NCBI RefSeq assembly: GCF_001936595.1 | Contig: NZ_MLBG01000044.1 | Location: 1-33,182 of the forward strand | DNA length: 33,182 nt | Source: Desulfovibrio sp. DV | GTDB taxonomy: Bacteria; Desulfobacterota; Desulfovibrionia; Desulfovibrionales; Desulfovibrionaceae | Direction: 5' to 3' | Shown here: piece after piece, positions 1,196 through 31,916 of the stretch | How the letters are laid out: every line of letters begins with the position of its first letter | How positions within the stretch are numbered: the stretch's first letter is position 1 | Made by a program: the position numbers and the translations under genes | The notes under the pieces: generated by a model | What the model was told of the DNA's origin: nothing | Databases searched by the model: none | The model's input: the letters and a program-made list of their open reading frames with translations, nothing else

Positions 1196-1409
1196 TGTCA
1201 GGACCATCCTGGTTTGAGTTCAGCAAGTTTTCAAGTTTCTTGCGAAAGTTCCCTGTAAGTTCGAGACCAATTTCGGCATAGCTACGGAGTATCGCTCCAT
1301 CGACTTCGATGGCGGTGGTGTCCATGATCTTGAAAAGTTGCTCAATTGGTCGGAATGCGCTGGTGATTGCTGATTTTAGGTCCAGATTTTCGAGGTCTTG
1401 TGGTTCCAT
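1182..1409 (-). CDS. Small acidic hypothetical protein, 75 aa
   Basis: I do not recognise this protein. It begins MEPQDLENLDLKSAI and is mostly predicted helix, with an IEQLFKIMDTTAIEVDG core and an acidic, asparagine-rich tail. The start is supported by AAGGA six bases before the ATG. Its 3' end overlaps the start of the DUF6573-like gene by 14 bases, which supports a two-gene minus-strand operon. The upstream region holds one copy of a repeat that recurs after the acetoacetate decarboxylase gene. Confidence 0.6.
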   Translation of the reverse strand: MEPQDLENLDLKSAITSAFRPIEQLFKIMDTTAIEVDGAILRSYAEIGLELTGNFRKKLENLLNSNQDGPDNAER

Positions 1410-6041: not shown

Positions 6042-7034
6042 ATGGCTGACGTCCAAAAATATTTTCTTGAATTCCATGACGCGATAAAATTGAGCAATAT
6101 TGAAGAAAACAAAATATTGCAAGAAAAGCGGGACATATTAATAGGGAACCTCAAGGAAAAATTGCCGGAGGACTTCCCGTCCTTCTCGCAGTTTAATCAA
6201 GGCAGCTATGCCATGAATACAGGAGTTAACCCAAAGGACAGTGACTTCGATATCGATGTGGGAATTGTTTTTGAGTGCTTACGATCTAAGTTTACGCCAG
6301 TAGGACTTAAAAAGAAAATAAGAGATGCACTTGCATACGCGAATAGACAAGTTCTAATTAGACGATCATGTGTGACTGTACAATACATTAAAAGTGGCGA
6401 ACATTGTTATCATGTTGATTTGGCTATTTACGTTAAACGTGAGGAAGACTCTTTCTTTGACCTAGCTAAAGGCAAAGAATTTTCTGAGGAATCTGAAAAA
6501 TATTGGGAACTTTCAGACCCTAAAGGCTTGATTAGTAAAATTCAGGCTGGCTCAACTTCGTGTTTAGAGGCGAAACATACCGCTCAAATGCGTAGGTGTA
6601 TTCGTTATTTGAAGCTTTGGCGTGATCACAAACTCCCAAGTGGAAAACCTGTCAGCATAGCCCTCACATGTGCCGCTCAACAATGGTTCTCTCCAAAAGA
6701 AGATAGATTAGGGAAGGATGACGACCTTGAAGCAATGCTTAATTGGGCTTCTCAGATTCATACCTTTGTCAGTGTCACCAGGAATATTCCGCTTCCTGTT
6801 CAGCCGTACTCTAATCTTTTAGCTGAGTTAACTGAAAATCAACTAAATGGTGTTTGTGATCGCCTTGTAGAACTTAAAAATGCGCTGAAAGAGGCACGTG
6901 CTGAAGATGATCCTGTCGAAGCTTGCAAGAAGCTCATGAAACAATTCGGGAAATGCTTCCCTGTGCCAGAGAAGTCAGAGACAGCCAAAGTCTCTATCAA
7001 AGCGGCTGTCCTACCGTCAGGGACGAGTGCCTAA
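6042..7034 (+). CDS. CBASS cyclic-oligonucleotide synthase (CD-NTase)
   Basis: This 330-aa nucleotidyltransferase makes a cyclic oligonucleotide alarm signal when phage infect. The pol-beta-type active site is visible: GS at 54-55 (NQGSYAMNTG), then D70 and D72 in DFDIDVGIVF, and a third acidic residue D126 in YHVDLAIYV. Length is normal for DncV/CD-NTase proteins. AGGAGAT lies five bases before the ATG. The stop codon overlaps the Cap2 start (TAATG), and the order CD-NTase, Cap2, Cap3, SAVED effector is that of a type II CBASS operon. The protein ends ...SGTSA; a small C-terminal residue fits the family's known use as a Cap2 conjugation substrate. The clade and nucleotide product cannot be told from sequence alone. 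Confidence 0.95.
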   Translation: MADVQKYFLEFHDAIKLSNIEENKILQEKRDILIGNLKEKLPEDFPSFSQFNQGSYAMNTGVNPKDSDFDIDVGIVFECLRSKFTPVGLKKKIRDALAYANRQVLIRRSCVTVQYIKSGEHCYHVDLAIYVKREEDSFFDLAKGKEFSEESEKYWELSDPKGLISKIQAGSTSCLEAKHTAQMRRCIRYLKLWRDHKLPSGKPVSIALTCAAQQWFSPKEDRLGKDDDLEAMLNWASQIHTFVSVTRNIPLPVQPYSNLLAELTENQLNGVCDRLVELKNALKEARAEDDPVEACKKLMKQFGKCFPVPEKSETAKVSIKAAVLPSGTSA

Positions 7035-8770
7035 TGGTAATGACAGTAAAAGAGGAGGTTTTTTTAGAACATCTAAATAAAAATCATAGTGTCAGTGAGG
7101 CTCGGAAAATTGATTGTGACGAAGTTAGCCTCACACAAGTTTCACAGCATGGCCAAAGTACTTTTGCCTTTAAAGCAAAAGTCAAGGATAACTTTTTTGA
7201 AATAGTCGTCATAGTTAGTGATGAATTCCCCAGGGCTCTTCCAGACTACTATCTGCTGCATCCTGGTAAACATGGGCTAATGGGTCACGTGAATTGGAGA
7301 GGGAAGATTTGTTACACCACGGAGGAAAATCTTGCTATTGATGTAGATAGGCCTCTAGATGTTTTAGATTATACACTTAAAAAAGTATTAGATGTCCTTG
7401 AATCTGGAGAGAAAAAAAATTTAACGTCGCTATGGGAAGAGATTCAAGGATATTGGCAGTCGTTACCAGAGTCGTATATAGTCTATTGTTTTTTCGATCC
7501 AGGTGATGCCGTTGAATCAATTTATGCTCAAGAAAAGAAACTCAATGGGAAACATATTGTAACGTGTTTTAACAAAGAGCCATGCGATAAAGAGTATGGC
7601 TTTAACTGTTCGTTTAAGAAAGCTAATCAAATTCACGCTCTTTATATCCCGCTGTCTACGCAAATAAATCCTCCGCTGCCAGGACAGCCTATAACGATGC
7701 AGTTTGTCAAGGATTTGATTTCTAAGGTAGCACCAAATAATTTTCTCAAATTACAGCAAATATTGTCACGTGGACGGCATAGAAAACAGAGACTTCCAAT
7801 ACTTTTTTCTATGCCACGTACGTCTGGGCAAAAGGCTCTACTGGGTCTTGTTCTTCAATTTCGGGGAAGTATTAATTTTATTACTGCTCAGAGTAAGGAC
7901 ATATACCGAATATTTCCTTTGATCGTACAAAGGCATGATAAAAAGTACCTGCTTGAAAGAGGCGGTGTCCAGCAATGTTTAGCTGGAAAGTGTGTATCTA
8001 TCATTGGCTGTGGAGCTGTTGGTTCAAGAATAGCTGACCTCATTGTTCATGATGGAATTGGGGAAGTAATACTTGTGGACCACGACTGCCTTCAAGTCGA
8101 CAATCTCTATAGGCATCTTCTTGGCGGTTCATATATTGGTAACTACAAAAGCACTGCCTTGGCAAATTATTTTAAAACAAAACTCCCTTATGTCAATATT
8201 ACTCCTGAAGTTATGCGCTTAGAAAACTGGATAAAATCGGAAAATTATTGCCGAACTGATATTGTGATTGAGGCTACTGGGAATATAACCTCCGCTAGGA
8301 ATTTCAATAGAATGATTAGGACAAGTATGACCACTGTAAAACCAGTGGTTTACACGTGGCTAGAGCCGTATGGGATTGGGCTTCATGCTCTTCTAACTTG
8401 TCCGCCTCTTTCGGGATGTCTCGAATGCCTTTTTACAAATAAGGGTGAATCTTTTCTGTCAGCGGTTACAAGTTTTCTTAACCCTGGCCAGCATTACGCT
8501 AAAGATCTTGTAGGGTGCGGTGGATCATTTACAGACTTCGCTAACGCTGAAGCTGCGAGGTTAGCGCTCATGGGGCGGGATCTTGCGATCGGATTCTTAC
8601 TCAACAAAAGAAATCCTACTTATCTAATTTATAAAGGGGATAAAAGTCAGGCAATTGCTGCAGGATTGAAACCAAGTGAGTGGTATTTTACTGCAGACAA
8701 CGCTAAAATTTTAAGACTCGAAAATAATTTTCTGGAGGCAACATGTCCGTTATGCAGCGGACAAAACTAA
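7034..8770 (+). CDS. cap2: CBASS Cap2, E2-E1 ubiquitin-transferase-like fusion
   Basis: From the ATG at 7034 the protein is 578 aa. Residues 1-145 form an E2-like domain with LLHPGKHGLMGHVNW and the likely catalytic C93 in GKICYTTEENL. The E1/ThiF-like adenylation domain (about 305-560) has the nucleotide loop GCGAVG (325-330), D348, R360 and a likely transfer cysteine C495 in DLVGCGGSF. Cys pairs at 462/465 and 571/574 (CLEC, CPLC) could bind zinc. In type II CBASS, Cap2 attaches the CD-NTase C-terminus to a target and so primes signalling. The start overlaps the CD-NTase stop (TAATG); an ATG at 7040 is equally possible. The 3' end overlaps cap3 by 28 bases. All catalytic features appear intact. 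Confidence 0.93.
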   Translation: MVMTVKEEVFLEHLNKNHSVSEARKIDCDEVSLTQVSQHGQSTFAFKAKVKDNFFEIVVIVSDEFPRALPDYYLLHPGKHGLMGHVNWRGKICYTTEENLAIDVDRPLDVLDYTLKKVLDVLESGEKKNLTSLWEEIQGYWQSLPESYIVYCFFDPGDAVESIYAQEKKLNGKHIVTCFNKEPCDKEYGFNCSFKKANQIHALYIPLSTQINPPLPGQPITMQFVKDLISKVAPNNFLKLQQILSRGRHRKQRLPILFSMPRTSGQKALLGLVLQFRGSINFITAQSKDIYRIFPLIVQRHDKKYLLERGGVQQCLAGKCVSIIGCGAVGSRIADLIVHDGIGEVILVDHDCLQVDNLYRHLLGGSYIGNYKSTALANYFKTKLPYVNITPEVMRLENWIKSENYCRTDIVIEATGNITSARNFNRMIRTSMTTVKPVVYTWLEPYGIGLHALLTCPPLSGCLECLFTNKGESFLSAVTSFLNPGQHYAKDLVGCGGSFTDFANAEAARLALMGRDLAIGFLLNKRNPTYLIYKGDKSQAIAAGLKPSEWYFTADNAKILRLENNFLEATCPLCSGQN

Positions 8771-9234
8771 TCTATCCGATGCTCCATTGCGGCAGATTGA
8801 ATATTTCAGAAGAAGTAACAAATAAGCTTTTCCCATGGCGTCAACTGAATTCTCTAGACAGAGAAGCTGGCGGTCTTTTACTAGGAAGGCATTTGATAGA
8901 TAGTCCAAACATTATCATTGATGACATCACTGCGCCATTAGAATGTGATAAAAGATCCCGATTTTCATTTTTTCGATCATTGTCACATAATTTAATTGCA
9001 AAAGGTCAGTGGTTATCAAGTGGCAAGACTTGCATAACGCTTGGAACTTGGCATAGCCATCCAGAGGTATATCCAGAACCTTCTTTGCAAGACTGGAATG
9101 ACTGGAAAAAAGTATTGAGAAAAGGCCGTTATCCATCACCATTTTTGTTTTTTCTTATTCTTGGCATAGAGAGTGTAAGGGTCTGGCAAGGCTTTAATCC
9201 TGAAAAGATTTTTGAAATAAAGTGTAATATATGA
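8743..9234 (+). CDS. cap3: CBASS Cap3, JAMM-type deconjugating protease
   Basis: This 163-aa metalloprotease has the complete JAMM motif: E41 in DREAGGLLLG, then H104-S-H106, S114 and D117 (HSH-x7-S-x2-D). In type II CBASS it removes CD-NTase from its conjugates and so balances Cap2. Length is typical. Two starts are possible, 8743 and 8752, both inside the end of cap2. The stop codon overlaps the effector start (ATGA at 9231-9234), so the whole operon is translationally coupled. Confidence 0.93.
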   Translation: MSVMQRTKLIYPMLHCGRLNISEEVTNKLFPWRQLNSLDREAGGLLLGRHLIDSPNIIIDDITAPLECDKRSRFSFFRSLSHNLIAKGQWLSSGKTCITLGTWHSHPEVYPEPSLQDWNDWKKVLRKGRYPSPFLFFLILGIESVRVWQGFNPEKIFEIKCNI

Positions 9235-10313
9235 TAAAAACTGTTAGCAGACTTGTGGTTGAAACGAATGTCCGCATTATTGCTGGCGTAGTTTTGATAT
9301 TGCTTTCTATTCTATTAGGCTTTAATTCTGTAAGCAGTCATTATAAGTTAACTATTCAGTATGAGTCTTATCGTGCTGAAGCTGAGGCCACAAAAGAAGA
9401 CAAAGAAGGGAATGCTCTCGCATTGTATTTAGCAATTTTGTTGTTGGCAGTTGGTGTAATCCTAGTCGTTAGTGGTGCACGTGATAATAGATTGCTGAAA
9501 AGGAATTCAAGAGTACGGACGATATTAGTTCAAATTTTGGGCTTAGAAGCAGAGGCGACGCCCCGGCTAAAGCAGTTTCTTCAAAATGACATTGTTGAGT
9601 CAGGTGATTTGCTTGAAATATCAGTTGATCTTCGGAAATACATAAAGAATAATTGTTTGGTCGATCCTAATGCTGCGTTTGTCGATATATGTCAAATTAA
9701 CGATAGCTTGGCGTCGATAGCACGCAGTCATAACGACTTTAAATTTGAGATAATCTATGGTGGTTTGGCTCCCATCCCTTTACTTGTTCTGGCTGGCTAT
9801 TTGATCTCAAATCGGTGCAACGTAAGAAATATTTTTGAATATAATCGTCTTACTAGCTCTTGGGAGACTTTACAGAATAATCCCAACGATAAATCAGACC
9901 TTATTTGTGACAAGTTGGTGGCAGGTAGCAGTGTCTCAGAAGTGGCAATTTCTCTGTCAGTTTCTTACCAAATTAGTGATGAACAGATTAAAGAAAGTTT
10001 AAATGATGATATAAAAATACTGCATTGCAAATCTCAAAATGTCTGCGTTGACAGTATAAATAGTAGGCAGGCTTTGGACAGATCTGTTGAAACATTTCGT
10101 AAATATATCAATGATATTAACGTAAAGTTCCCTTCTGTTAAAAGGATTCATGTTTTTTGTGCTGCTCAATCATCATTTTGTTTTTCCCTCGGCCGGATAC
10201 TTGCCCCTAATATCCATGGTTCTTTTTGTGTCTATTACTTTAACAGAAATTCAACGCCTTGTTATCCGTGGGCGTTATCTCTTACGGCTGGATCGGACCC
10301 GAAACTTATATAA
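9231..10313 (+). CDS. cap14: CBASS effector, 2TM-SAVED (Cap14-type)
   Basis: This 360-aa protein has two N-terminal transmembrane helices (about 16-32 and 62-82) and a C-terminal SAVED domain (about 165-355). SAVED hallmarks are YGGLAPIPLLVLAGYLI (175-191), FEYNR, and a second half with IHVFCAAQSSFCFSLGRIL followed by VYYFNR. SAVED domains bind cyclic oligonucleotides. In the characterised 2TM-SAVED effectors (Cap14), binding leads to membrane disruption and death of the infected cell. The ATG overlaps the cap3 stop. It is the last gene of the operon; a 10-bp hairpin without a T tail follows at 10400. The SAVED domain is compact and its ligand cannot be predicted. Confidence 0.88.
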   Translation: MIKTVSRLVVETNVRIIAGVVLILLSILLGFNSVSSHYKLTIQYESYRAEAEATKEDKEGNALALYLAILLLAVGVILVVSGARDNRLLKRNSRVRTILVQILGLEAEATPRLKQFLQNDIVESGDLLEISVDLRKYIKNNCLVDPNAAFVDICQINDSLASIARSHNDFKFEIIYGGLAPIPLLVLAGYLISNRCNVRNIFEYNRLTSSWETLQNNPNDKSDLICDKLVAGSSVSEVAISLSVSYQISDEQIKESLNDDIKILHCKSQNVCVDSINSRQALDRSVETFRKYINDINVKFPSVKRIHVFCAAQSSFCFSLGRILAPNIHGSFCVYYFNRNSTPCYPWALSLTAGSDPKLI

Positions 10314-11294: not shown

Positions 11295-12677
11295 ATGCCG
11301 ATTTCTTTAATACGGCCACGGCTTACTGATTTTCATGGAATCCACTCGTCACAGTCCCAAGTTGACTTTGCTATTCCTTTTTTTGATGAGGACATTCCTT
11401 TGTTTGTCGATCCTTTTTTGCTGTGGAGATCTCCTTCATATCAAGATAAATCACTCCATGGGTCAATTGTTAATAGTTTTAATCATTTAGGTTATCTTTC
11501 GAGGACCGGGAAACGAGATGAAGCGATAAGGCAATTAATTATCGCATCTGAGTGTGATGAGGTTGGTTTGGGTTTGTCTTCTACAAAACAAGGGAAAAGA
11601 ATAGGAGAAGATAAAGCTGGTAATATATTAGATGTGTTCGAGCGTATCGATATCTATAGGGAGTGTGGCTTTAAGCATCTTGAAGAGCTTCAGTTGTACA
11701 TTGATGGAGTGTCTTCTGATAGGATAAGTGACATTGCATGTAATTTTATGAAGTCTTTTTTGATTGATTACACTATATATCAGTGCAAAAGCCTTGGAAT
11801 TCCTTGTGAGAATACGCGCATTGAACATTTGTATGATATTGAAAAGTTGACATTTACTGAAAATTTTAATGTTGAATTGCCGGTTAATCCTTCGAATAAG
11901 ATGCCAATCTTGCTTATCCCAAAGCGTTGGTTGAGGCGTAGCCTATGGATTGCGTTTGATGACTATTTTAAATCATATTGCCCTTGTGATGCTAATGTAA
12001 ACCCTGGAGGTGTTGTTTCAAGAGTTGATGTTTTAGTGTATAACAGAGATAACTACGGCGCAATTGATTATTATATAAAAGAAAAAGAAAGAAATAGGGA
12101 TGATTGTCATAATGACCCATTGTTTACGCAAATACCTGTAAACTCTGCGAAAAATAAAATTAAACAAATAAAATCTTTGCCAACGGGCAAGGATGATGGA
12201 GCTGATAAAAAATATGAAGATTTTGTTTGCCAACTATTGGCTTCGCTTTTGTACCCAGATTTAGATTTTGCTGCAGAACAAGTTCGGACTAGTTCTGGAG
12301 TAAGTATTAGAGATGTCGTATTCTACAATAATAGGACGCATAATTTTTTGAAAGAAATATTTGATGATTTTGGAAGTAAGCAGATTGTGATGGAACTCAA
12401 GAATGTAAAAGAAGTTGAGAGAGAGCATGTTGATCAAATCAATAGATATGTAAATGATAATTTTGGTCGGTTCGGTGTTCTCGTGACCCGAAATAATCTT
12501 AAGGCAGCGCGGTATAGAGCTTTAATTGATTTGTGGTCTGGTCAGAGAAAATGCATTATTCCCTTAACTGACACCGATCTTGAGCAAATGGTTGATCTGT
12601 ATGAAAGCAGGCAACGAAGTCCATTGGATGTGCTGAAAAAGAAATATATTGAATTCCGTCGTTCATGTCCAGCTTAG
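11295..12677 (+). CDS. Putative PD-(D/E)XK nuclease, first gene of a three-gene cassette
   Basis: This 460-aa protein ends in a restriction-endonuclease-like domain (about 300-425): E308 in KYEDFVCQLL, D340 in SGVSIRDVVFY and E367-L-K369 in QIVMELKNVKEV match the E...D...ExK pattern, followed by HVDQINRYVNDNFGRFGVLVTR. The N-terminal part has FFDEDIPLFVDPFLLWRSPS, which I associate with uncharacterised defence-island proteins but cannot name. There is no signal peptide or membrane segment. The ATG at 11295 is preceded only by a weak purine stretch. The stop lies just before the next gene's AGGAGG, so the genes are co-transcribed. The nuclease is likely to act on DNA; the trigger is unknown. 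The gene is A+T-rich relative to the flanks, consistent with transfer. Confidence 0.8.
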   Translation: MPISLIRPRLTDFHGIHSSQSQVDFAIPFFDEDIPLFVDPFLLWRSPSYQDKSLHGSIVNSFNHLGYLSRTGKRDEAIRQLIIASECDEVGLGLSSTKQGKRIGEDKAGNILDVFERIDIYRECGFKHLEELQLYIDGVSSDRISDIACNFMKSFLIDYTIYQCKSLGIPCENTRIEHLYDIEKLTFTENFNVELPVNPSNKMPILLIPKRWLRRSLWIAFDDYFKSYCPCDANVNPGGVVSRVDVLVYNRDNYGAIDYYIKEKERNRDDCHNDPLFTQIPVNSAKNKIKQIKSLPTGKDDGADKKYEDFVCQLLASLLYPDLDFAAEQVRTSSGVSIRDVVFYNNRTHNFLKEIFDDFGSKQIVMELKNVKEVEREHVDQINRYVNDNFGRFGVLVTRNNLKAARYRALIDLWSGQRKCIIPLTDTDLEQMVDLYESRQRSPLDVLKKKYIEFRRSCPA

Positions 12678-17573: not shown

Positions 17574-18722
17574 CTATGCCACTTCTAAAGCGGGTAACAG
17601 ATTGACTGCTCTTTCTTTTTCTCCTTCCATGTAGTGGTAATAGGTGTCTGCCGTCATCTTCACCGTTGAATGTCCCATCATCTTGGAAACGGCAGCTAAG
17701 TCAGCACCTTTGCGAAGTAAGGTGGTCGCAAACAGATGCCGAAGATCGTACATACTAGTCTGGTAGGTGATACCAGCCCGTTTGCATGCGTTTTTGAATG
17801 CTTTCCGAATCGTGGTCAGGTTCCGGCCCATGTACTCGATGACATATCCGGTTTGTGACTCTGCCTGCTCCTTCTCCAAACGTTTCAGGAACTCAGGGTT
17901 GATCGGAACTGTCCGGTAGGTCTTGGTTTTACTGGCATAAATGCGAACAGTGCTGGCCTTGAAGTCAATGTCTTCCCACTTGAGTGAAAGAAGTTCTGAT
18001 TCACCAGGACGAGTACCCAGGTTGAAGCAAACTTCCATCGCCCACTTTAAATGAGGTTCGGCATTGATCATGATCTTCTTCGCATCGTCCAAGGTGAGCT
18101 TCATGTCCCATGGTTGAACCTTGGGTTTCTTCCAAATCTTCAGGGGATTGACGGAGGTAAAGCCGTTGTCTATCCCGAAGTTGAAGATGAAACTCAAGTA
18201 ATCACAGTACTTATTCACCGTGTACTGGGACCGGACTTTTCCCGTTCTGCTGCTGACTCCTTGAAAGTGCAGGATGAACGGGATCATGTTTTCTTGGTAG
18301 GACAGGGAATCCACTGGCTTGTCGCCAAGAACCGGGATGAACACGTGGTTGACCAAGTGCTCGATGTTCCGAATGTGCTTCTCTGTCCGCCCTGATGCCT
18401 TCATATGGGCCAGATACTTCGATCCAAGCTCAGACAGGACCATCCCGCCAGGAACTCGACCAGTGACCTGGTTAAAGCTCTGGATCGGGGCCGCAGCAGG
18501 GTTCACCATCTGTCCGGTCGCCGGCACTGGTACTAGGACCGATGCCGTCACCGTTTCAGGATCAGGAACCGGTAACCCCTGGTCGAGTGCGTCACGAACA
18601 GCGTGATCAAACTTTTCAGCTTTTGCTTGACCAAGTTCACCACGACCAAACGATTTGTCATGTCTTTTGCCGTTGAAATGCCAATAGACCATCCATCGGC
18701 TATCACGTTGATAGACGCCCAT
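17574..18722 (-). CDS. int: Tyrosine recombinase / phage-type integrase
   Basis: From the ATG at 18722 (AGAGG upstream) this is a full-length integrase of 382 aa. Domains: an N-terminal AP2-like arm-binding part (GVYQRDSRWMVYWHFNGKR), a proline-rich linker (about 50-95), a SAM-like core-binding domain (95-200) and the catalytic domain (205-375). Catalytic residues visible are R238 (GTRPGE), K267 (SKTKTYR), R328 (YDLRHLFAT, with Tyr/Asp where the usual first His stands), H351 (MGHS) and nucleophile Y361. It should catalyse site-specific integration and excision of the minus-strand element. No attachment-site pair is obvious in the window. A second, shorter recombinase lies immediately upstream. 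Confidence 0.92.
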   Translation of the reverse strand: MGVYQRDSRWMVYWHFNGKRHDKSFGRGELGQAKAEKFDHAVRDALDQGLPVPDPETVTASVLVPVPATGQMVNPAAAPIQSFNQVTGRVPGGMVLSELGSKYLAHMKASGRTEKHIRNIEHLVNHVFIPVLGDKPVDSLSYQENMIPFILHFQGVSSRTGKVRSQYTVNKYCDYLSFIFNFGIDNGFTSVNPLKIWKKPKVQPWDMKLTLDDAKKIMINAEPHLKWAMEVCFNLGTRPGESELLSLKWEDIDFKASTVRIYASKTKTYRTVPINPEFLKRLEKEQAESQTGYVIEYMGRNLTTIRKAFKNACKRAGITYQTSMYDLRHLFATTLLRKGADLAAVSKMMGHSTVKMTADTYYHYMEGEKERAVNLLPALEVA

Positions 18723-18798
18723 AAAAACCTCTTCTGTTCTAGGTTGAAGTAACAATTTAAATTCTGGACCGAGGGGAATTGAGGCGCTCTACAAATAA

Positions 18799-18826: not shown

Positions 18827-19384
18827 CTAAATAGAGTTCATCAAAACTTCTTCGACTTCTTCCTCCTTCACGCCGATATATCTTCTTGTGATACTCGGGC
18901 TACTGTGGTTCAGTCTTTTAGCTATGACCTCCCATGAAGTGCCGTAGGTTTTCCGCTGGTGATAACACCAAGTCTTCCTAAGACTATGCGCTCCGTAGTT
19001 TCCTGGAAGGTGGATCGCATCGCACCATTGTTGCACATACATTGTTACAGCGTAAGTCGTAATTGCATAATTACTCCCTTTCCGGCTCTTAAACAGGAAA
19101 TGCTCGTCCTTTGCATCCACAGTCTTCAAATAGTCGTCAAGAGCATCTTTAATATCCTTGTTGACCATGAAAACATTCTCTTTGCCTGTCTTTTTCTCCT
19201 TGATGACAATACGGTCACCAACCTTGGCGTGCATTATGTCCGAAATTCTGAGTGCAAGGATGTCCTGTACCCGGAGTCCAGTGTTGATGCCCATTATGAA
19301 CAAGAGTCTGTTGCGAGGTTGATCTGCCAAGAGCTTTTTAATACTCTTGATGTCCTTTGCATTCGTTATGGGTTCTACCTTCAT
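18827..19384 (-). CDS. Short tyrosine recombinase, catalytic domain only
   Basis: From the ATG at 19384 (GGAGGA six bases upstream) the protein is 185 aa. It consists of a catalytic domain only: R38 (GINTGLRVQD), K65 or K68 (KEKKTGKEN), H133-x2-R136 (AHSLRKTW), H160 (LNHSS) and Y169 (RRYIGV). The SAM-like core-binding domain of normal integrases is missing. Such minimal recombinases are a recognisable group in Firmicutes and deltaproteobacteria and may resolve multimers of a replicon or act with a partner. It lies between the HTH/AbrB-like gene and the full-length integrase. Given the nearby replication genes, dimer resolution is plausible but unproven. Confidence 0.88.
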   Translation of the reverse strand: MKVEPITNAKDIKSIKKLLADQPRNRLLFIMGINTGLRVQDILALRISDIMHAKVGDRIVIKEKKTGKENVFMVNKDIKDALDDYLKTVDAKDEHFLFKSRKGSNYAITTYAVTMYVQQWCDAIHLPGNYGAHSLRKTWCYHQRKTYGTSWEVIAKRLNHSSPSITRRYIGVKEEEVEEVLMNSI

Positions 19385-19774
19385 AGATTCCTCCAATCTG
19401 GTTTTTACTTTTGGGAAGACCAGAAACGAATATTGAAAACTGCTGGTCCAAGGGCTTGGCCCTGGGGCTTGCCGTTAACGCCTTGTGATTCTTTGGAATC
19501 TTCAACTTTCTAGGTCGAATGTACGTTAATAGGTAAAACCGTCCTTCGACGATGTGCAGTAGGTTCCAATTTTGAATACTTATATCTGTAGTTTTGTGGC
19601 TAAAATCGAAAATACAATGCGAAGAATCGTACGGTGACAATCTGCCAAGATTTGCCAGTAGCTCGGTCAGTAAAGACAAAGTATTTTTAAGTTTACAGAA
19701 GTATAAAAAACTTATTCGAGTTAAAAAATAAGAAATGCCACGCAGACGAATCCGCATGACATTTCAGTTGGAGG
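19385..19774. other. Intergenic region with a terminator
   Basis: These 390 bases contain the terminator of the HTH/AbrB-like gene (19723-19764) and the leader of the short recombinase. I see no gene on either strand. Confidence 0.5.
19723..19764 (-). terminator. Intrinsic terminator of the HTH/AbrB-like gene
   Basis: AAATGCCACGC (19733-19743) pairs with GCATGACATTT (19754-19764), 11 pairs including two G-U. The minus strand continues with TTATTTTTTAA, a good U tail. Confidence 0.8.
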
Positions 19775-20155
19775 TTATGGGAGAATCTTGTTCAAGATGA
19801 TCTTGCCATCGATGACTTCGATTGTGAACTCGTCGCCTTCGTTGACTTCAAGATCACCGAGATCGTGGGCTTTCAGATTGACCTTCAGAAAACCGAATTG
19901 GTTTACCTTCGGTCTCTTTGAGTCCTTGAGATAAAGTCCCTTGACCTCATAGAGCACCCTGTCGGTACTTATGAGCTTCAAGATATACTGTTTAAGCGTC
20001 TGACGATGTTTGATCTTCATGCGCTCCATTATCGTAGCAGCATCCAGACCTTCTTTGATAAGGCTACGAAGAGTCTTCGGATCATACTTCGATTCGATTT
20101 TCTTCTTCGCCGTCCCGTCTTGAACGTCAGTTGAATTACCATTCTTGGCTCCCAT
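19775..20155 (-). CDS. Putative DNA-binding protein with HTH and AbrB-like domains
   Basis: The 126-aa protein starts at ATG 20155, with AAGGAGG five bases upstream; an in-frame ATG at 20233 is rejected. Residues 26-62 look like a helix-turn-helix (PKTLRSLIKEGLDAATIMER, then KHRQTLKQYILKL). Residues 85-124 (FGFLKVNLKAHDLGDLEVNE, then GDEFTIEVIDGKIILNKI) have the swapped-hairpin pattern of AbrB/MazE-like proteins. Both halves suggest a small transcription factor, possibly controlling replication or recombination of the element. It lies just beyond the terminator of the structured non-coding region. The family assignment is from pattern only. Confidence 0.72.
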   Translation of the reverse strand: MGAKNGNSTDVQDGTAKKKIESKYDPKTLRSLIKEGLDAATIMERMKIKHRQTLKQYILKLISTDRVLYEVKGLYLKDSKRPKVNQFGFLKVNLKAHDLGDLEVNEGDEFTIEVIDGKIILNKILP

Positions 20156-20471
20156 AACGCCTCCTTTGCATAGAAATGTTACTTTATCTGGTATATCTCT
20201 ACGAATTGCTGAAAAATGCATGAAAATACGCATTTCTTGGGCAAAAACGCATCAAATTTCTCGTGCTTCTGGGATGGAAATCGTAATTTGGGCGTAGGAC
20301 GCTGTTCCTGGGGTTTTTTGCTGGCGGGGGATGCCAAGCCATAGGACAAGCCCCGAAAACCCAGGAGACGGGATTTTACAAGGGGTGTTCCCGGGGCCAG
20401 GACAAGTTCAACCAGCCCCAGCGAGGTAATTGACGCCGGGTGGACCAGGAGATGCGAAAAAACCAACCGTT
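20156..20471. other. Non-coding leader of the HTH/AbrB-like gene
   Basis: These 316 bases lie between the HTH/AbrB-like gene and the terminator of the structured region. G+C-rich blocks around 20300-20440 show no coding signature. The promoter of the HTH/AbrB-like gene should be within it. Confidence 0.45.
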
Positions 20472-20508
20472 AGAAAAAAGAAAAAGGCCCTCACGAATGA
20501 AAGCCTTT
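20472..20508 (-). terminator. Intrinsic terminator at the 3' end of the structured non-coding region
   Basis: AAAGGC (20483-20488) pairs with GCCTTT (20503-20508). On the minus strand the stem is followed by TTTCTTTTTTC. There is no protein-coding gene upstream on that strand for 1.2 kb, so the terminator implies a minus-strand non-coding transcript. Confidence 0.75.
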
Positions 20509-21410
20509 GTAAAGAATCTACTTTGCAGCTTACGGAATCATGCGACCATCTAAATTTCTTCAGATGGAAGCAGAACTCCTAAGAGTCGAAAGGAGCGTCA
20601 CCGGTCCTAGCACTCTGTTGCAACCGTACAAGCGGTTTTCCCGCATACGGCTACGTCAATTGGTATTCGATGTATCATAAGTGTCTAATGTTTTGAAGTA
20701 GCTTTGAATTACGCTGTGCTACTGAAGAACAGCGGCTTCGGGTTTATACCCAAAGCAGTGGTTTTGTTGTTTTGTTTAAGTGACATCTCGTGCTACATCG
20801 AATACCGTTCGATAGTTTCTTACAAACTTCAGCCACCCTTATGAAAATCAAGCTTTTCATCTCCGTGAAAATCTTTTCACAAGGGCTTCCTTTGGTCTAT
20901 TGCAATCCTTTAAAGCCATCCCATGTCTAATCGCATTCATATGTCCAAACGTGATTTCACTTGAGCTATCACGCTTTTAGAAGATTATTAAAAATCAACG
21001 AATTTCAGTTTGCCATGAACTTCATCCGACATATGGGCCACCTTGACTTCTGTATTATTTAATACATACGGGCTGGTTTTCGTCTCAACTTCTCCCCCGT
21101 CTGGATTGCTCCATAACGGGTAAGTCATTCTTAGGTAGATCTGGTTCGAGGAGAGTACGACCGATCTGGTTTGTCTTAAGTAATGTTTATTTTTCGACTT
21201 GATGTCTTTTCAAGAGAAGACATCTCCTGGCATTTGCTAGGACAGGATTTGGAATATACAAAGCACCCATGGCGTTTGTAAACCGCAAAGTAGAATTCTA
21301 AACAATTTGCTGGATATTAATATCTGTAGCAAATCGCCGTTTAATTCACTTAGGTTCCGTTTGATTTAAACGAAACTACAGATATACATTGAATATCATG
21401 CTTGTTTCAG
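20472..21410 (-). ncRNA. Candidate large structured non-coding RNA, about 0.9 kb
   Basis: No credible ORF on either strand, but dense inverted repeats. Examples: GGTATTCGATGTA (20662-20674) with TACATCGAATACC (20794-20806), 13 bp, about 120 apart; GCTTCGGGT with ACCCAAAGC (20735-20756, one mismatch); ATGAAAA/TTTTCAT (20841-20860) and GTGAAAA/TTTTCAC (20865-20880) enclosed by CCCTT/AAGGG (20836-20885), a three-way junction; CATATGTC (20938-20945) with GACATATG (21028-21035); CGTGAT/ATCACG (20950-20973); TGTATT/AATACA (21051-21066); CCCGT/ACGGG (21096-21120); GATGTCTT/AAGACATC (21201-21224); CCTGGCA/TGCTAGG (21226-21241); ATTTGCT/AGCAAAT around GATAT/ATATC (21305-21334). The strand is set by the intrinsic terminator at its minus-strand 3' end. 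Size, layout and place on a mobile replicon recall the ornate phage/plasmid RNAs (GOLLD, ROOL), but I cannot assign a class. The 5' end is approximate. Confidence 0.62.
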
Positions 21411-21445
21411 TCCTGATGCGGCAGAATGAGTCCCAGTGGTGAAAA

Positions 21446-21698
21446 GGTAATGATGGGTAATGAGATCGAATTTAGAACTCATTACCGAAAAATCAAAGAA
21501 AATCAAATAGTTTTGAAAAAGGTAATGAGGTAATGAGGGTAATGATAGAAAATATAAAAAATACTTTTTTTATAAAAAATCGGTGGATTGGGAAAAATGG
21601 GAGGGGGTGCAAAAATTTCGTGTTACCCGGTCCCAAATGCTCATTACCTCATTACCTATTGAAATCATTAAAGTTTTTTTGTTTTTCAGGGTAATGAG
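21446..21698. other. Probable replication origin with nine iterons
   Basis: The 8-9 base motif GGTAATGA(G) occurs as direct copies at 21446, 21456, 21521, 21529, 21538 and 21690, and inverted (CTCATTACC) at 21478, 21640 and 21648. Copies at 21521-21545 are contiguous with an 8-9 base period. Between the arms, 21541-21595 is almost pure A+T, as expected for a DNA-unwinding element. The array sits just beyond the 3' end of the primase-helicase gene. This is the layout of an iteron-controlled origin. The motif could also be an operator array for another element protein. Confidence 0.72.
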
Positions 21699-21755
21699 GT
21701 TCCAAAAATACCAATAAGTGACAACCAAGTACAACGAGTTGTGCGTGTTGACCTG

Positions 21756-24575
21756 TTAGTTGGACACGCCACTGTCACTTTCAATGGACAAGTCAATACC
21801 TATTAGGTCTTTGATGACAAGTACTGACAAGCAATAGCACGCCGTTCTGGCCTTACCAACATGAACTGTCTTAGTGTTTTGTCTCGCGCTGGGTATTAAA
21901 ATACCTTTTGACTTCCAACTTTTAATGGTTGGTTCGGCATCATAGTTCAATTTTGTCAGTCTTTCGTTAAGTTGGTGACTTACAATCGCAATGTAATCAT
22001 CTGTTGTTTGCCAACGGCCAAGCCAGCCTCCTGACGGTTCAATGGCGTTTGACCCTCCATCTGTCCTGTGCTTTCCATAGAATTTTTGCTGGTTACTACC
22101 GATCCAAGATATTATTTCTTTCAATGCTTTTAAATGGATGTCAGTATGCTCCTTAACTTCGCCAATGTATTCAGCGAATAATTTCCTAAATGTTGCGGTT
22201 ATTCCTGCCGTTGGTTCTAGTCCTGCAAAACAAGATGAAACTAACCATGCAGTTGATTCTAAGGCAGCAAAGTATTCGCTGATTCTATCGATTACACCAC
22301 TTCCTTTTTCAGACAGTGAGTACTCTAGATTGATTTTATTGTACGCCACTTTCCATTCGTCCCAGAAATTTTGCTTCGTTAAAATATGATATACGAACAA
22401 TGGTCCGGCAAATCCATAATTGTTGCAAGCCGTCTCATTAATATTTCGAACTAGTTGTTCCTTGGGTTCATCCCCTAAGGGGCTGCCCCAGAAAGATATT
22501 ACTCTTGCTGAAGCTCCTCCATGTCCTTTTGCTGCATCTATCGATTGTTGCTCCCCAGAACTGATCAACACGCTTTGATAGGTTGTGGTTTCAACAGTTC
22601 CGATTTTTCCTCCACGTCCTCGTCCTTTCCCAGAAGCAAAGCTGTAGATTATATTAGAAATGATTTTGTTTGCTTCATCTCGAGTATACTTAGAGAATAA
22701 GCGTTTTGTATCGTCAAGGACAACTGGAATGTCATTGAATGTACTAGCTCGCCGTTCTAACCAAACAGGAGTGGAGTCCCAAGTAAAATAAATAGAACAA
22801 ATTTCTTTTTCATTGGGGCATCCCCATACGGAAACTGCTAATCGTTGACACGTTGATTTGCCTTTCGAAGTTTCGCCAGCGGTTTCAACTATCAGATTCG
22901 GCATTCCAAGAATTTTTAATAGAGGGGCAGCAAAAGAAGCCATTAAAATACTATAAGCAATGGGGAAATCTTTGACTTCGATCGCCATCTTATACCATTC
23001 GTCAACAGTTCCCTTAGAATCCAATCCGTCTAGGAATTGGTCGTCGCCCTCGCCTTCTCCTTTATAAGTGATTTGTTTTATTCCTAAACCTTGTAGTTGC
23101 TGACTGTTTAAGATCCCGTCTTTCGTGATTAAGTACCGACCCCAAACAAAGTAAGTATTTTCTTCGTGCCAACCCAGCTTGTTGGTAGTGTAAGAAATGG
23201 GAATATTCTCTCTGTTTGCCGACTCGTAAATGGAAAGATAAAATATGAATTGCTTTTTGTTTAATGAATTTATCGGAATTCCTAAATTTGTTATTTCAAC
23301 TACTTTTAAAGATTCAAATAAACTTACACGGTCAAAGAGATGTTCTTTCCATTCGCCATCGATGAACCATGCGAGTAGGATGCGTTCGAACTTAGAATCA
23401 CAAACTTTAGCCCTGCTTTTTATGACTACTGGACAATCAAAGATTAACTCCCTTGCTCCATCCGGTGTCATAGACATGAAGATGCCTTTTGTCGTTAAAT
23501 AAAAATTAGAAGGAAGTTCAGCTAATTCAGAAACAGGAGCATCTGGTAGCATAGACTTGATTTTTACATAGTTGCTATCCGTAAAGAAATTTTTCGGCGA
23601 CTTCTTTGAAAAATTTGCTAAAGGGGTGAGAGAGCTTGAACCCTTTGGCTTTTTGATAATATGCTCGTAAATTCCCAGAAGTTCTTTTTCATCAATTGGA
23701 GGATTGAATCTAGTGCTATTGGCTTCGTTTATCTTGGCAAAAATCTCTTCATCGCTATAATTTTTAGCATGAAGAGAAGCGCAGTAACTTATCATTGTAT
23801 TATGTCGGGAGCCACTTGGGATGATTTCTGGTAATACAAATTTCGAGGGTTCGGTGGCAGGCTGTATCTTCTCTAGAATGCCGGTCAAGTAGCTGTCGTC
23901 ATATTTTATGATGCTGGCCATGAATTGTAATTCTTCTTCGGTCGTGTCAAAAATGTCTTTATATGCCTTTTCAGGAGACAAGAAACGAGTAGATCGTTTT
24001 TCAGCAGCCTCTTTTTGATAGGGGAGAGCGATTAAATTGCCGATCTTCAGTCCGGTTATATCGTTTTGTGCCGGGAATAACTTGTCAAAAGATCTTTGGT
24101 GGGATGTTCCTATGAGAAGACCAGCTTGTTTCAACACATGATTTGCAATATCTCTACCTTTTTTAGCATGGACTTGCTCTTTAAAAAAGAAGTAGACGTG
24201 ATATCCGTCGCCAGACCTCGACTTTAATACGTAGGCTTCTATTCCAAGTTCTTTAAGACCATTAACATAAAGAAGCATGTCGTCGTACGGGGATTCATTC
24301 CCCGTATGGTTGTCAAAATCAGCAGCGATAAAATAACAACAGCTATTTTCTAAAAGAGGGTAAAGCCCAAGTATGGTTTCGCCTCGGAAATGTTTTTGCA
24401 ACAGTTCATCGGTTAACGGCTGATATTCTTTTGAGTTCTGAATTAAAACTGGTCTGTAGCCTCGGTCTACTTCTCCTGAGCTTTTTATGTACTCAAAATA
24501 TTCGGCAAAAACATCTTCACGCCCTCTAAATAAAGAACGGTAAAGTGAAATCAGATCATTAGAATCGTGTGCCAT
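21756..24575 (-). CDS. TOTE-type primase fused to a DUF927-like helicase (replication protein)
   Basis: This 939-aa protein has an N-terminal archaeo-eukaryotic primase domain of the TOTE type (about 10-235): D86 and D88 (YFIAADFDNHTG) and H126 (RSGDGYHVYFFF) are the expected catalytic residues, followed by LIALPYQKEA. Residues 250-310 resemble a primase-C-terminal helical unit. The second half is a DUF927-like ATPase with Walker A GETSKGKST (567-575), Walker B IPVVLDD (616-622) and a GKGRGRGGKIGTVETT segment. Such fusions are replication proteins of plasmids, prophages and integrative elements. The ATG at 24575 has only a weak AGAAG upstream. With the iterons at 21446-21698 it should form the element's replication module. 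Confidence 0.9.
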   Translation of the reverse strand: MAHDSNDLISLYRSLFRGREDVFAEYFEYIKSSGEVDRGYRPVLIQNSKEYQPLTDELLQKHFRGETILGLYPLLENSCCYFIAADFDNHTGNESPYDDMLLYVNGLKELGIEAYVLKSRSGDGYHVYFFFKEQVHAKKGRDIANHVLKQAGLLIGTSHQRSFDKLFPAQNDITGLKIGNLIALPYQKEAAEKRSTRFLSPEKAYKDIFDTTEEELQFMASIIKYDDSYLTGILEKIQPATEPSKFVLPEIIPSGSRHNTMISYCASLHAKNYSDEEIFAKINEANSTRFNPPIDEKELLGIYEHIIKKPKGSSSLTPLANFSKKSPKNFFTDSNYVKIKSMLPDAPVSELAELPSNFYLTTKGIFMSMTPDGARELIFDCPVVIKSRAKVCDSKFERILLAWFIDGEWKEHLFDRVSLFESLKVVEITNLGIPINSLNKKQFIFYLSIYESANRENIPISYTTNKLGWHEENTYFVWGRYLITKDGILNSQQLQGLGIKQITYKGEGEGDDQFLDGLDSKGTVDEWYKMAIEVKDFPIAYSILMASFAAPLLKILGMPNLIVETAGETSKGKSTCQRLAVSVWGCPNEKEICSIYFTWDSTPVWLERRASTFNDIPVVLDDTKRLFSKYTRDEANKIISNIIYSFASGKGRGRGGKIGTVETTTYQSVLISSGEQQSIDAAKGHGGASARVISFWGSPLGDEPKEQLVRNINETACNNYGFAGPLFVYHILTKQNFWDEWKVAYNKINLEYSLSEKGSGVIDRISEYFAALESTAWLVSSCFAGLEPTAGITATFRKLFAEYIGEVKEHTDIHLKALKEIISWIGSNQQKFYGKHRTDGGSNAIEPSGGWLGRWQTTDDYIAIVSHQLNERLTKLNYDAEPTIKSWKSKGILIPSARQNTKTVHVGKARTACYCLSVLVIKDLIGIDLSIESDSGVSN

Positions 24576-29205: not shown

Positions 29206-29362
29206 TTTTGAAAAACGAAAGGAAATTCGTTTTTGGAGAAGTCCAAGGGGGCGGATGCATAATCTGGGTTCTAAACGGCACGCAGCTATTTCATCTGGAA
29301 ACCGTATGGAATTCGTGCGTTTCCCCTCAAGCCTATTTGACTCGTAAAGATAATCTTTTCGC
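29206..29362. repeat. Repeat C copy 2, with dispersed hairpin copy 6
   Basis: Starts with the hairpin AAAACGAA/TTCGTTTT (29211-29233, AGGAAA loop, T5 tail), then GGTTCTAAACGGCACGCAGC and TATGGAATTCGTGCGTTTC, overlapping the end of the XRE gene. The same order of hairpin and motifs is found after the flagellin gene (31929-32028), with about 27 bases deleted there. The two copies are in direct orientation and flank the XRE/flagellin pair. Confidence 0.72.
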
Positions 29363-29674
29363 TAGGTTAATTACATTCTGTAACAACTTCAGTTCTGCCG
29401 TTGGCATTTCCCGCACCACGTCAATGACCTGCCCCTGGAGCAGTTCCCTTTCCTGCTCCGGTTCCTCCACGGCCAGAAGCTGCGAAACGGTCACGCCTAA
29501 TCCCTTGGAAAGCCGCTCCAGACTCTGAAGAGTCGGGTTCCCATCACCTCGTTCAATCTCGCCCACATGCTGGACGGAAACTTTGGCCTGCTCGGCCAAA
29601 TTTTCCTGGGTCCAACCGCGCAGTTTTCTTAGGGTCTTTACCCGGTCACCAAGAGCTTTTTCCAAATTTTCCAT
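29333..29674 (-). CDS. XRE-family helix-turn-helix regulator, flagellin-linked copy 2
   Basis: This 113-aa protein has a Cro/C1-type HTH at about 8-62 (WTQENLAEQAKVSVQHVGEI, ERGDGNPTLQSLERL) and a helical C-terminus (75-113). The start at 29674 has GAGG seven bases upstream. It is a relative of the 108-aa XRE protein at 456-782 and, like it, diverges from a flagellin gene. The leader carries a strong inverted repeat that includes the ribosome-binding site, suggesting autoregulation. Its 3' end overlaps repeat C. A regulatory role on the neighbouring flagellin is likely but is inferred only from the repeated arrangement. Confidence 0.88.
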   Translation of the reverse strand: MENLEKALGDRVKTLRKLRGWTQENLAEQAKVSVQHVGEIERGDGNPTLQSLERLSKGLGVTVSQLLAVEEPEQERELLQGQVIDVVREMPTAELKLLQNVINLAKRLSLRVK

Positions 29675-29709: not shown

Positions 29710-29861
29710 AGTCCTTAGCAAAAGCAGTCAGGGTATAGATTTTGAATAAATAACTATACGTCGGTAAAGATTTCCGGTTGTGCCAGTGGCTTGGCTGGCC
29801 CGGCTGGTTTCGAGATGTTCCAGATAAAAACTGTTATTTTAAAAAGTTAAGTGATTCACGC

Positions 29862-31916
29862 ATGAATTTTGGCATAAATCACAACCTGATGGCCATGAAC
29901 GTGTCCCGGAACCTGGGTAATCACTACCAGGAACTCGGAGTATCGACACGGCGGCTGTCATCTGGCCTAAGGATCGGCACCGCTGCTGATGATGCAGCTG
30001 GTTTGGCCGTTCGTGAACTCATGCGGTCGGATGTGAGCACCCTGAACCAAGGGGTAAGAAATGCCAATGACGCGATCTCGATGATCCAGACGGCAGATGG
30101 GGCACTTGAAGTTATTGATGAAAAGCTTATACGGATGAAAGAATTAGCCGAGCAAGCTGCAACAGGAACATACACTTCTGACCAGCGAATGATCATATCT
30201 TCTGAATTCCAAGCTATGGCCAGTGAAATCCAGAGGATTGCTGTTGCCACTGATTTCAATGGGATAAAGCTTCTTGATAATTCATTGGCAAATGCTACTG
30301 GGGCATGGGGGTGGTCAAATCCATCCACGCAAGCTGCTCATAGTGGAACTTCTTTAGATTCTACTGGTCCAGCTAAGGTTCATTTTGGAACCGGTAACAC
30401 TTCTGCGGAAGATTATTATTATGTTGGAGTAAGTAATTCACAAGTAGGTGCTATCCTTGAGCCAAATGGAGTAACTGAAAACGGCGACGAATTCCAAGTC
30501 AATACGTATACGACAAGTGTCCAGGCAAATCCTGCGGTTACAGGTCTTGCAAATGGTGGTTATGTGGCAACATGGCAATCAGTTGGTCAGGATGGGGATG
30601 ATTTTGGGATATTTGCGAAGGTCTATGATAAAGCTGGTAAGGCTCAGACTGGGGATATCCAAGTAAACAGCTATACAACATGGATTCAATCCCTTCCAAC
30701 AGCGACAAGCCTTGCTGATGGTGGGTTTTTAGTTTCTTGGAATTCTGATTCGCAACCGCCAGATAGTGGTAGCTGGGGTGTTTTTGCTCAGCGTTATAAT
30801 GCATCCGGTGAACCCTTGGGTAATGAATTTCTTGTCAATACATCAACATCAAATGCTCAAAATAGTCCAAGCGTCACTGGGTTGCCGGATGGCGGCTATG
30901 TTGCCACTTGGATGTCAAATCATACCGGCGATGCGAATATATATAAGCAGCAATATGACAAAACTGGTGCAGCTGTCGGTGCTGAAACGTTAGTCAGTTC
31001 AGTTCCTGGAACACAGCATACACCCAGTGTCTCAAGTCTACAGGACGGAGGATACGCAATAACATGGCGGTCAGATCAAAATGGTTCCAATGACATCTAT
31101 TTGCGAATATTTGGTGCAGATGGAAATCCAGTAACGGCGGAAGCGATTGTGAATGATGTCCAGACAGGAAGTCAGATTGATCCAAAAATTACAACATTGA
31201 AAAATGGTAATTTTGTTGTAGCCTATTCTTCAGACCAATCAGGAACAAACGATATTTTCTACCAAGTGTTCGATTCAACTGGGAATAAATTGGGTTCGAA
31301 TAGGATGGCTAATTCTTATACAACTCTAAATCAGCAAGAACCATCGGCCACTAGCCTAGCTGGTGGAGGATTTATGTTGTCCTGGTCGTCGCAAAACCAA
31401 GATGGTAGTGGTTATGGAATTTATGGGCAACAGTTTGACAGTAACGGAAATGCGCTAGATGAAGAAGTAAAAATTAGTACAGAATCGAATAATGACCAGG
31501 GACGGCCATCTATCGCTGGATTGACGGATGGCGGTGTTGTGGCAGTTTGGCACTCCATGGACCAAGATAGTAGTGATTGGGGGGTGTTTGGGCAAAGATA
31601 TTCACCTACTTTTAATATCAATACGCAAGAATCTGCGCAGAATTATTTGGACAATATAAAAGATGCTGCCGTTCGGGTAAATGCAAACAGAGCGAATCTT
31701 GGTGCTACTCAAAATAGGCTAGAAAATACAATTTCCAATCTTCAGATTCAAGCAGAAAATTTACAAGATGCCGAATCGCAGATATCTGACGTAGATGTAG
31801 CGGATGAAATGACTAACTTCGTAAAAGAACAGATATTAAGTCAAGCAGCTACGGCGATGTTGGCACAAGCCAATTCGATCCCAAAGATGGCGATTCAATT
31901 GATTAGCGGCGGGTAG
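29862..31916 (+). CDS. Flagellin with a seven-repeat, propeller-like surface domain
   Basis: This 684-aa flagellin has an N-terminal D0/D1 (1-145: NHNLMAMNVSRNLGNHYQEL, RLSSGLRI, AADDAAGLAVRELM, MIQTADGALEVIDEKLIRMK) and a C-terminal D1/D0 (585-684: RANLGATQNRLENTISNL, ending NSIPKMAIQLISGG). Between them, residues 207-584 are seven tandem repeats of 51-57 aa with the pattern VNTYTT...P.VT.L.DGGYVATW.S......GIF...YD..G...G. Seven WD-like repeats of this size would fit a seven-bladed beta-propeller on the outside of the filament. Most flagellins of this group are about 300-500 aa. An in-frame ATG 28 codons upstream is rejected because the family begins at MNFGINHN; the ribosome-binding site is weak. 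The repeat region is A+T-richer than the conserved ends. A hairpin terminator (31929) follows. Confidence 0.93.
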   Translation: MNFGINHNLMAMNVSRNLGNHYQELGVSTRRLSSGLRIGTAADDAAGLAVRELMRSDVSTLNQGVRNANDAISMIQTADGALEVIDEKLIRMKELAEQAATGTYTSDQRMIISSEFQAMASEIQRIAVATDFNGIKLLDNSLANATGAWGWSNPSTQAAHSGTSLDSTGPAKVHFGTGNTSAEDYYYVGVSNSQVGAILEPNGVTENGDEFQVNTYTTSVQANPAVTGLANGGYVATWQSVGQDGDDFGIFAKVYDKAGKAQTGDIQVNSYTTWIQSLPTATSLADGGFLVSWNSDSQPPDSGSWGVFAQRYNASGEPLGNEFLVNTSTSNAQNSPSVTGLPDGGYVATWMSNHTGDANIYKQQYDKTGAAVGAETLVSSVPGTQHTPSVSSLQDGGYAITWRSDQNGSNDIYLRIFGADGNPVTAEAIVNDVQTGSQIDPKITTLKNGNFVVAYSSDQSGTNDIFYQVFDSTGNKLGSNRMANSYTTLNQQEPSATSLAGGGFMLSWSSQNQDGSGYGIYGQQFDSNGNALDEEVKISTESNNDQGRPSIAGLTDGGVVAVWHSMDQDSSDWGVFGQRYSPTFNINTQESAQNYLDNIKDAAVRVNANRANLGATQNRLENTISNLQIQAENLQDAESQISDVDVADEMTNFVKEQILSQAATAMLAQANSIPKMAIQLISGG

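Follow-up and report, generated by a model that had tools for sequence, protein, structure and literature searches.

A probable group II intron-type ribozyme without an intron-encoded protein, in a noncoding gene of an integrative element of Desulfovibrio sp. DV

The minus strand of the analysed stretch of Desulfovibrio sp. DV (33,182 nucleotides of contig NZ_MLBG01000044.1, referred to below as the window; the genome that carries it comprises 4.85 Mb in 219 contigs) contains the gene of a real structured RNA, which is a group II intron-type ribozyme and not a member of a GOLLD/ROOL-type class. The best explanation, to which a probability of roughly 0.7 is assigned, is that this ribozyme, with its six domains in order and without an intron-encoded protein, is now a fixed part of a short noncoding transcript that an integrative element encodes. 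In the structural parts tested, the RNA agrees with a group II intron, the termini excepted: it has a covarying structure, a domain V, a bulged A in domain VI and a pairing between EBS1 and IBS1; it ends in a terminator, encloses no open reading frame (ORF), is linked to two neighbouring genes, and occurs in a genome that, as assembled, yielded no GIIM maturase domain. Because the termini deviate and the Rfam cut-off is not reached, the RNA is better described as a new group II ribozyme variant than as a canonical group II intron.

Extent and folding of the RNA gene

20471-21329, minus strand: whole conserved RNA unit, 859 nt in the 12-locus alignment A1, with ends set by homology and a consensus fold
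20475-20508, minus strand: intrinsic terminator, predicted at 20508-20483 and kept in the 11 aligned relatives

A large, conserved, structured and apparently noncoding minus-strand RNA on a mobile element had been proposed here in the original prediction, and is supported by homologues that show compensatory changes. The region is free of ORFs, as anticipated (none of at least 60 amino acids between 20467 and 21755), and the predicted minus-strand terminator is present. The minus strand of segment 20470-21420 folds at -306.3 kcal/mol, against -225.0 +/- 9.8 kcal/mol for 20 dinucleotide-shuffled controls (z -8.3); for the plus strand of the same segment, the comparison with dinucleotide shuffles gave z -4.9. 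Alignment A1 consists of the window and 11 relatives and spans 859 bases of the window; RNAalifold predicted 203 pairs for its 12 sequences, 43 of them with compensatory change, and the consensus runs from a helix closing the whole RNA (P1) through domains I, II, III, IV, V and VI to a hairpin and the terminator. A second subfamily (A4, seven members), to which the window is matched by blastn over short stretches only, was folded on its own and yielded 222 pairs, 45 of them compensatory, in an identical layout; the six domains are thus found in the order I to VI in both separate consensus folds (12 and 7 sequences).

The inverted repeats of the original prediction were found at their positions, and several acquire a place in this architecture. 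The 13-bp pair of 20662-20674 with 20794-20806 is present, extends to 16 nt at 94% pairing, and forms the base of domain IV. The proposed three-way junction at 20836-20885 corresponds to domain II, drawn in the consensus as a long hairpin. The nested hairpins at 21305-21334 appear in the single-sequence fold, but their position is upstream of the covarying structure, and the consensus fold leaves them unpaired; the RNA does not reach to 21410 as had been assumed, since homology to the relatives begins only at about 21335-21325. The long-range helix that closes the whole RNA (21294-21278 with 20533-20517, 17 nt, 88%) had been missed. A promoter scan returned a single site, at 21282-21253 on the minus strand and inside the RNA, fewer than shuffled sequences lead one to expect, and no promoter is claimed.

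Group II domains

20890-21263, minus strand: domain I (consensus fold, alignment columns 80-478)
20832-20889, minus strand: domain II (consensus fold, columns 479-536)
20814-20828, minus strand: domain III hairpin (consensus fold, columns 540-554)
20656-20812, minus strand: domain IV, with no ORF inside (consensus fold, columns 556-716)
20620-20654, minus strand: domain V, with AGC triad, two-nucleotide bulge UU and GAAAA loop (RF00029, 34.0 bits; template in 43 of 44 loci)
20582-20616, minus strand: domain VI, with a bulged A at 20586 (bulge in both consensus folds)

The original prediction had suggested a likeness to GOLLD and ROOL, or a wholly new class without a recognisable motif, and had proposed an Rfam comparison that included group I and group II introns. 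Rfam matched the window to none of the GOLLD, ROOL, OLE and HEARO models, whereas the comparison with introns was rewarding: a motif does exist, namely group II domain V together with domain VI. With permissive filters, RF00029 (domain V/VI) matched window positions 20579-20655 on the minus strand with 34.0 bits (E 1.8e-4); its gathering cut-off is 40 bits, above the window as well as the best member (39.9 bits), and at gathering score the window has no Rfam match. Five of the nine other members searched were matched by RF00029 with 31.3-39.9 bits, and the remaining four (L018, L022, L033, L044) gave no match at E values up to 0.5. The group-II-D1D4 models matched neither the window (E up to 5) nor the nine members (E up to 0.5). 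For orientation, three standard group II introns of order relatives (L012, L014, L016) reached 50-54 bits with domain V, which has the same GAAAA loop, and only L014 matched D1D4-4, with 44.3 bits against a cut-off of 49. Of the five Rfam matches to the window at E values up to 5, the other four were judged to be due to chance: ctRNA_p42d (28.3 bits, cut-off 50) and Phe_leader sit on the terminator hairpin, and SQ2397 and SBWMV2_UPD-PKk fall far under their cut-offs.

Domain V was followed through all 44 homologous loci (38 in the genus and 6 outside) with a template whose elements are the triad, the lower and upper stems, the loop and a bulge of two bases; it demands AGC or CGC and scans the 3' side of domain I only. 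At least 10 of 11 template points were scored in 43 loci; the exception, L082, scored 9, and a score of 10 was reached by one of 2,200 mononucleotide-shuffled segments. This agreement spans considerable sequence variety: the lower stem occurs in 12 different pairings and the upper stem in 9. Of the triads, 33 are AGC and 11 are CGC, the two given as usual for group II domain V in the relevant part of PMC12350094, and every one of the 44 loci has C or U as the second base of the bulge. Less uniformity is seen at the base of domain V: L020 and L022 have insertions in the 3' strand, and one pair is lost there in L018, L022 and L028. The bulged A of domain VI lies near the helix base in both consensus folds (column 809 in A1, 708 in A4), and 43 of 44 loci share a short sequence motif around the bulge, a count that refers to the motif and not to the bulge as such.

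Putative splice-site features and the closing helix

21267-21273, minus strand: IBS1 (GCCATGG), directly preceding the presumed 5' splice site; covaries with EBS1 in 13 distinct combinations
21266, minus strand: presumed first intron base
21008-21020, minus strand: EBS1 hairpin (GTT-CATGGCA-AAC) in domain I, complementary to IBS1
between 20578 and 20579, minus strand: candidate 3' splice site, placed by an assumed distance to the branch A; AY is not conserved
21278-21294, minus strand: 5' strand of P1, in the presumed 5' exon; pairs with 20517-20533
20517-20533, minus strand: 3' strand of P1, in the presumed 3' exon; pairs with 21278-21294
20536-20578, minus strand: 3' exon hairpin that stacks on P1 (consensus fold, and fold of the predicted joined exons)

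IBS1 was read as the bases just before a G-N-G-C-Y motif that are complementary to the domain I loop EBS1, the hairpin of which is identical across the 12 rows of A1 save for one stem base in L020. Among the 43 loci with a readable 5' site, 41 represent 13 distinct EBS1-IBS1 combinations; 21 of these 41 loci were entered into the test, and inspection by eye assigned the remaining 20 to the same combinations. Two loci with an EBS1 loop one base shorter (L074, L085) were left out, as was L021, whose contig starts inside the RNA and provides no 5' site; L030, a truncated copy at a contig end, stands outside the 44 loci. Pairing was found at 77 of 78 positions, compared to 73.6 +/- 1.2 for shuffled partners (permutation p 0.008, uncorrected for relatedness), and two-sided changes occur at four of six positions.

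Group II introns have the consensus termini GUGYG ... AY. The presumed intron begins with GNGCY in all 43 loci with a readable site (GUGC in 23, GAGC in 10, GCGC in 8, GGGC in 2) and never with GUGYG; under the assumption that it ends seven bases past the bulged A, its 3' terminus is AY in only one of 43 loci. Altered termini are known among group II introns, according to passages of PMC4424553.

P1 is clear in both aligned subfamilies and less so across all loci. Tested on 43 loci, it gave a moderate signal, with a mean score of 23.1 for each locus's own strands, 18.0 for swapped and 17.4 for shuffled strands; 386 of 1,600 shuffles reached the score of the own strands. The best helix falls in the same place in 31 of the 43 loci (in a frame set post hoc), L073 and L076 reaching as many as 17 perfect pairs, and another helix scored best in the remaining 12 (L033, L037, L069, L071, L072, L077, L078, L079, L080, L082, L083, L086), of which L033, L069 and L086 by eye also contain their subfamily's P1 helix. 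For the predicted joined exons, folding gives a single hairpin and the terminator (z -8.65), and the same stems would form in the unspliced RNA. A search with the exon junction of the window's subfamily produced 18 matches in 8 of the 14 genus genomes, none of which spans the junction; no empty site was found for these exons.

Partner genes

19775-20155, minus strand: partner gene, 126-aa protein, helical in its N-terminal half and with a C terminus of weak AbrB/MazE likeness (A2; 41 of 44 loci)
18827-19396, minus strand: partner gene, 189-aa tyrosine recombinase, catalytic domain only (PF00589; 41 of 44 loci)
17574-18755, minus strand: larger tyrosine integrase of the element (PF00589)
21756-24575, minus strand: primase/helicase of the element (AEP, DUF927; Cch-like below the model's cut-off; domain matches)

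HMMs built from A2 and A3 located the genes of the small protein and the recombinase downstream of the RNA and on the same strand in 41 of 44 loci; of the other three, L088 is cut short, and L038 and L037 have the small gene at a greater distance. The small gene is split over two frames in L034, and the recombinase gene likewise in L023. This recurring neighbourhood indicates that the RNA belongs to integrative elements and interrupts no recognisable protein gene. The small protein has 79 matches, many of them weak, in 11 of the 14 genus genomes, compared to 38 RNA copies in 10 genomes; its family therefore also occurs without a detected RNA, and the link is one-sided. The partner-protein search led to seven loci, five in Solidesulfovibrio aerotolerans, one in S. 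alcoholivorans and one in an uncultured delta-proteobacterium. The AbrB likeness of the small protein is a guess (sequence E 0.34; Foldseek best E 0.3, for a model with mean pLDDT 76.5); a Gabija anti-defence protein ranked above AbrB (E 0.014) and was judged a chance match. Viral contigs contained no relative of the small protein, and plasmid and phage collections no DNA match.

Distribution and maturase genes

The RNA is present in 38 copies in 10 of the 14 genomes of the genus. With stricter filters, under which weak matches are lost, it was found in 15 of 348 genomes of the class, in 4 of 59 genera that all belong to one family, and in 2 of 395 genomes of a phylum sample, namely the genome of the window and one of the same family. 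A literature search found no publication on this RNA; some of its copies might be contained in the supplementary tables of PMC8919778.

As a rule, a group II intron moves together with a protein of its own and relies on it, which makes a maturase-free gene, here one kept by mobile elements of sulphate-reducing bacteria, unusual. The RNA has no ORF inside and thus lacks the intron-encoded reverse transcriptase/maturase that is a criterion of a mobile group II retroelement. Among the genomes of the genus, the GIIM domain was detected only in G009 and G002, so that nine of the ten RNA-bearing genomes are without it, including G005 with 13 RNA copies; some of the GIIM-negative genomes are drafts, and two of them, G004 (one contig) and G005 (three contigs), are listed as 100% complete. 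The sole RVT_1 match in the genome of the window (L039, 1372-2751, minus strand) obtains its best score as a reverse transcriptase of retron type II-A. Passages of PMC4424553 (2015) describe ORF-less bacterial group II introns as rare and as nearly always found in genomes that also contain related protein-bearing introns; a later survey, in the section concerned, counts 888 introns without protein in 14,506 genomes (PMC8919778).

Possible mechanism and alternative interpretations

From these features we infer splicing, its products and a benefit to the element, for an RNA whose termini deviate from consensus. The exon ends, paired as P1, would hold both splice sites together, and the 5' exon would dock on EBS1; attack on the 5' site at 21267/21266 would come from the bulged A at 20586, and the 5' exon would then be joined near 20579/20578. 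The predicted products would be a lariat of ~690 nt and a short hairpin RNA ending in the terminator. The useful product is most likely the ribozyme (or lariat) and not the joined exon, because exon sequences differ among relatives while the ribozyme core is kept. The weakest step of this scheme is the last, in which the ribozyme or lariat, jointly with the small protein and the recombinase, may serve the element. Tentatively, and with odds somewhat below even, the element family could have recruited a group II ribozyme as a dedicated noncoding gene, one that has ceased to spread in the manner of an intron; the maturase-free ribozyme or lariat might then act for the element, perhaps in trans on RNA or DNA (by reverse splicing, or by cleaving rivals), or as an RNA that partners the small protein and the recombinase.

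A group II fold that has been domesticated as a structural or regulatory RNA and no longer splices, for example one that binds the small partner protein or acts on the control region of the element, would accommodate the near-absence of a 3' AY (one of 43 loci at the assumed distance), the variable position 2 of the presumed intron, the insertions at the base of domain V in L020 and L022, the lack of an empty site for the exons of the window's subfamily, and the partner genes in 41 of 44 loci. Against it stand the bulged A of domain VI, which is kept in both folds, and the covarying EBS1-IBS1 pairing, both needed most obviously by a reaction at the 5' splice site, as well as a domain V that fits the template in 43 of 44 loci; a non-splicing RNA is unlikely, and is nevertheless to be taken seriously. 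Far less can be said for an ordinary ORF-less group II intron mobilised in trans by a reverse transcriptase elsewhere, an already disfavoured and quite improbable reading: many copies per genome (13 in G005) and the GIIM genes of G009 and G002 would suit it, but nine of ten RNA-bearing genus genomes are without GIIM. Moreover, 41 of 44 copies share one gene neighbourhood and no empty site was found, and copy number therefore seems to follow the DNA element.

That the RNA is a decaying, functionless intron relic is very improbable; the sub-threshold Rfam score and a domain V base disrupted in a few copies speak for it, whereas 43 and 45 compensatory pairs, the EBS1-IBS1 covariation, and the spread of 44 loci over four genera speak against it. 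GOLLD and ROOL are large RNAs in a mobile-element setting, and the RNA described here resembles them in size and mobile setting; it differs by its group II ribozyme fold. A new large RNA class of this kind, with a chance likeness to domain V, would suit the size, the mobile setting and the terminator, and is scarcely credible, as domain order, domain VI bulge, EBS1-IBS1 pairing and domain V jointly fit group II, and Rfam shows no match to such families.

Relation to known group II RNAs

The preferred reading, a maturase-free group II ribozyme in a noncoding gene, can be placed beside three known systems. With canonical bacterial group II introns (RF00029 and the D1-D4 clan), the RNA has in common six ordered domains, the AGC/CGC triad with its two-nucleotide bulge, the bulged A of domain VI, and EBS1-IBS1; it differs by the absence of an ORF and of a D1-D4 match, by its 5' GNGCY and rare 3' AY, by the lack of a maturase in nine of ten genomes, and by exons that form a helix and belong to a noncoding gene. 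The circularly permuted group II RNAs, as portrayed in parts of PMC8637638, are likewise noncoding RNAs of about 900 nt, with no ORF inside and an associated ORF nearby; they are found on chromosomes and plasmids, their biological role is given as unknown, and an AcpG gene is frequently, not constantly, in the vicinity. Their domain order is D5-D6-D1-D2-D3-D4 (PMC8637638, same parts), in contrast to D1 to D6 in both consensus folds here; domain V was found 3' of domain I in 44 of 44 loci in a scan of that side only. Since its domains are in the normal order, the RNA is not a circularly permuted group II RNA. The third system, the ORF-less group II intron C.te.I1 of Clostridium tetani, occurs in a genome without a related maturase gene and figures in the relevant passages of PMC4424553 as the sole known exception; unlike C.te.I1, the RNA described here is a multi-copy family over four genera, and a noncoding gene with recurring neighbours.

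A whole family, with up to 13 copies per genome, persists in genomes that have no group II maturase, accompanied by recurring partner genes. Its members form a natural collection of ribozymes that might splice without help; they are also the counterpart, in canonical domain order, of the circularly permuted group II RNAs, and possibly an example of a DNA element that has domesticated a group II ribozyme. The screen for protein-free introns in PMC8919778, as outlined in the part of that study concerned, asks for a domain V and a D1-D4 match; a screen of this type would be expected to miss the RNA, because no D1-D4 model matched the tested members.

Further observations on the element

Between the terminator and the small gene lies a GC-rich spacer (window 20267-20430) that is alike by eye in both main subfamilies; a consensus structure was sought in this spacer, and none was found. 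Of 43 loci, which are related, 9 carry a TAGAGAWAT box upstream of the RNA, and 19 carry one in the interval that separates the RNA from the small gene; the box was picked after viewing the sequences, and shuffles give about 0.2 loci. The box may indicate joint regulation of the RNA and the small gene. In two loci of a divergent subfamily (L074, L085), an extra ORF is seen by eye between the RNA and the small gene; it starts with MDDNRNLIFSYTRAQ or MDEFNLIYSYSRAQ and resembles window positions 806-1207, again by eye.

Repeats of GGTAATGAG in both orientations (window 21440-21700) adjoin the primase/helicase gene, and this repeat region is perhaps a replication origin. By eye, a flagellin-like ORF is cut by the left contig end (window 3-242), a second one of 712 aa has a repeat-rich middle (window 29778-31916), and two similar small XRE-like regulator ORFs lie near the contig ends (window 456-782 and 29333-29674). 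As cargo of the element, PADLOC identified a CBASS operon and a PDC-M36A candidate defence gene (window 6042-10313 and 11295-12677); the CBASS operon consists of cyclase, E1-E2, JAB and a SAVED-2TM effector.
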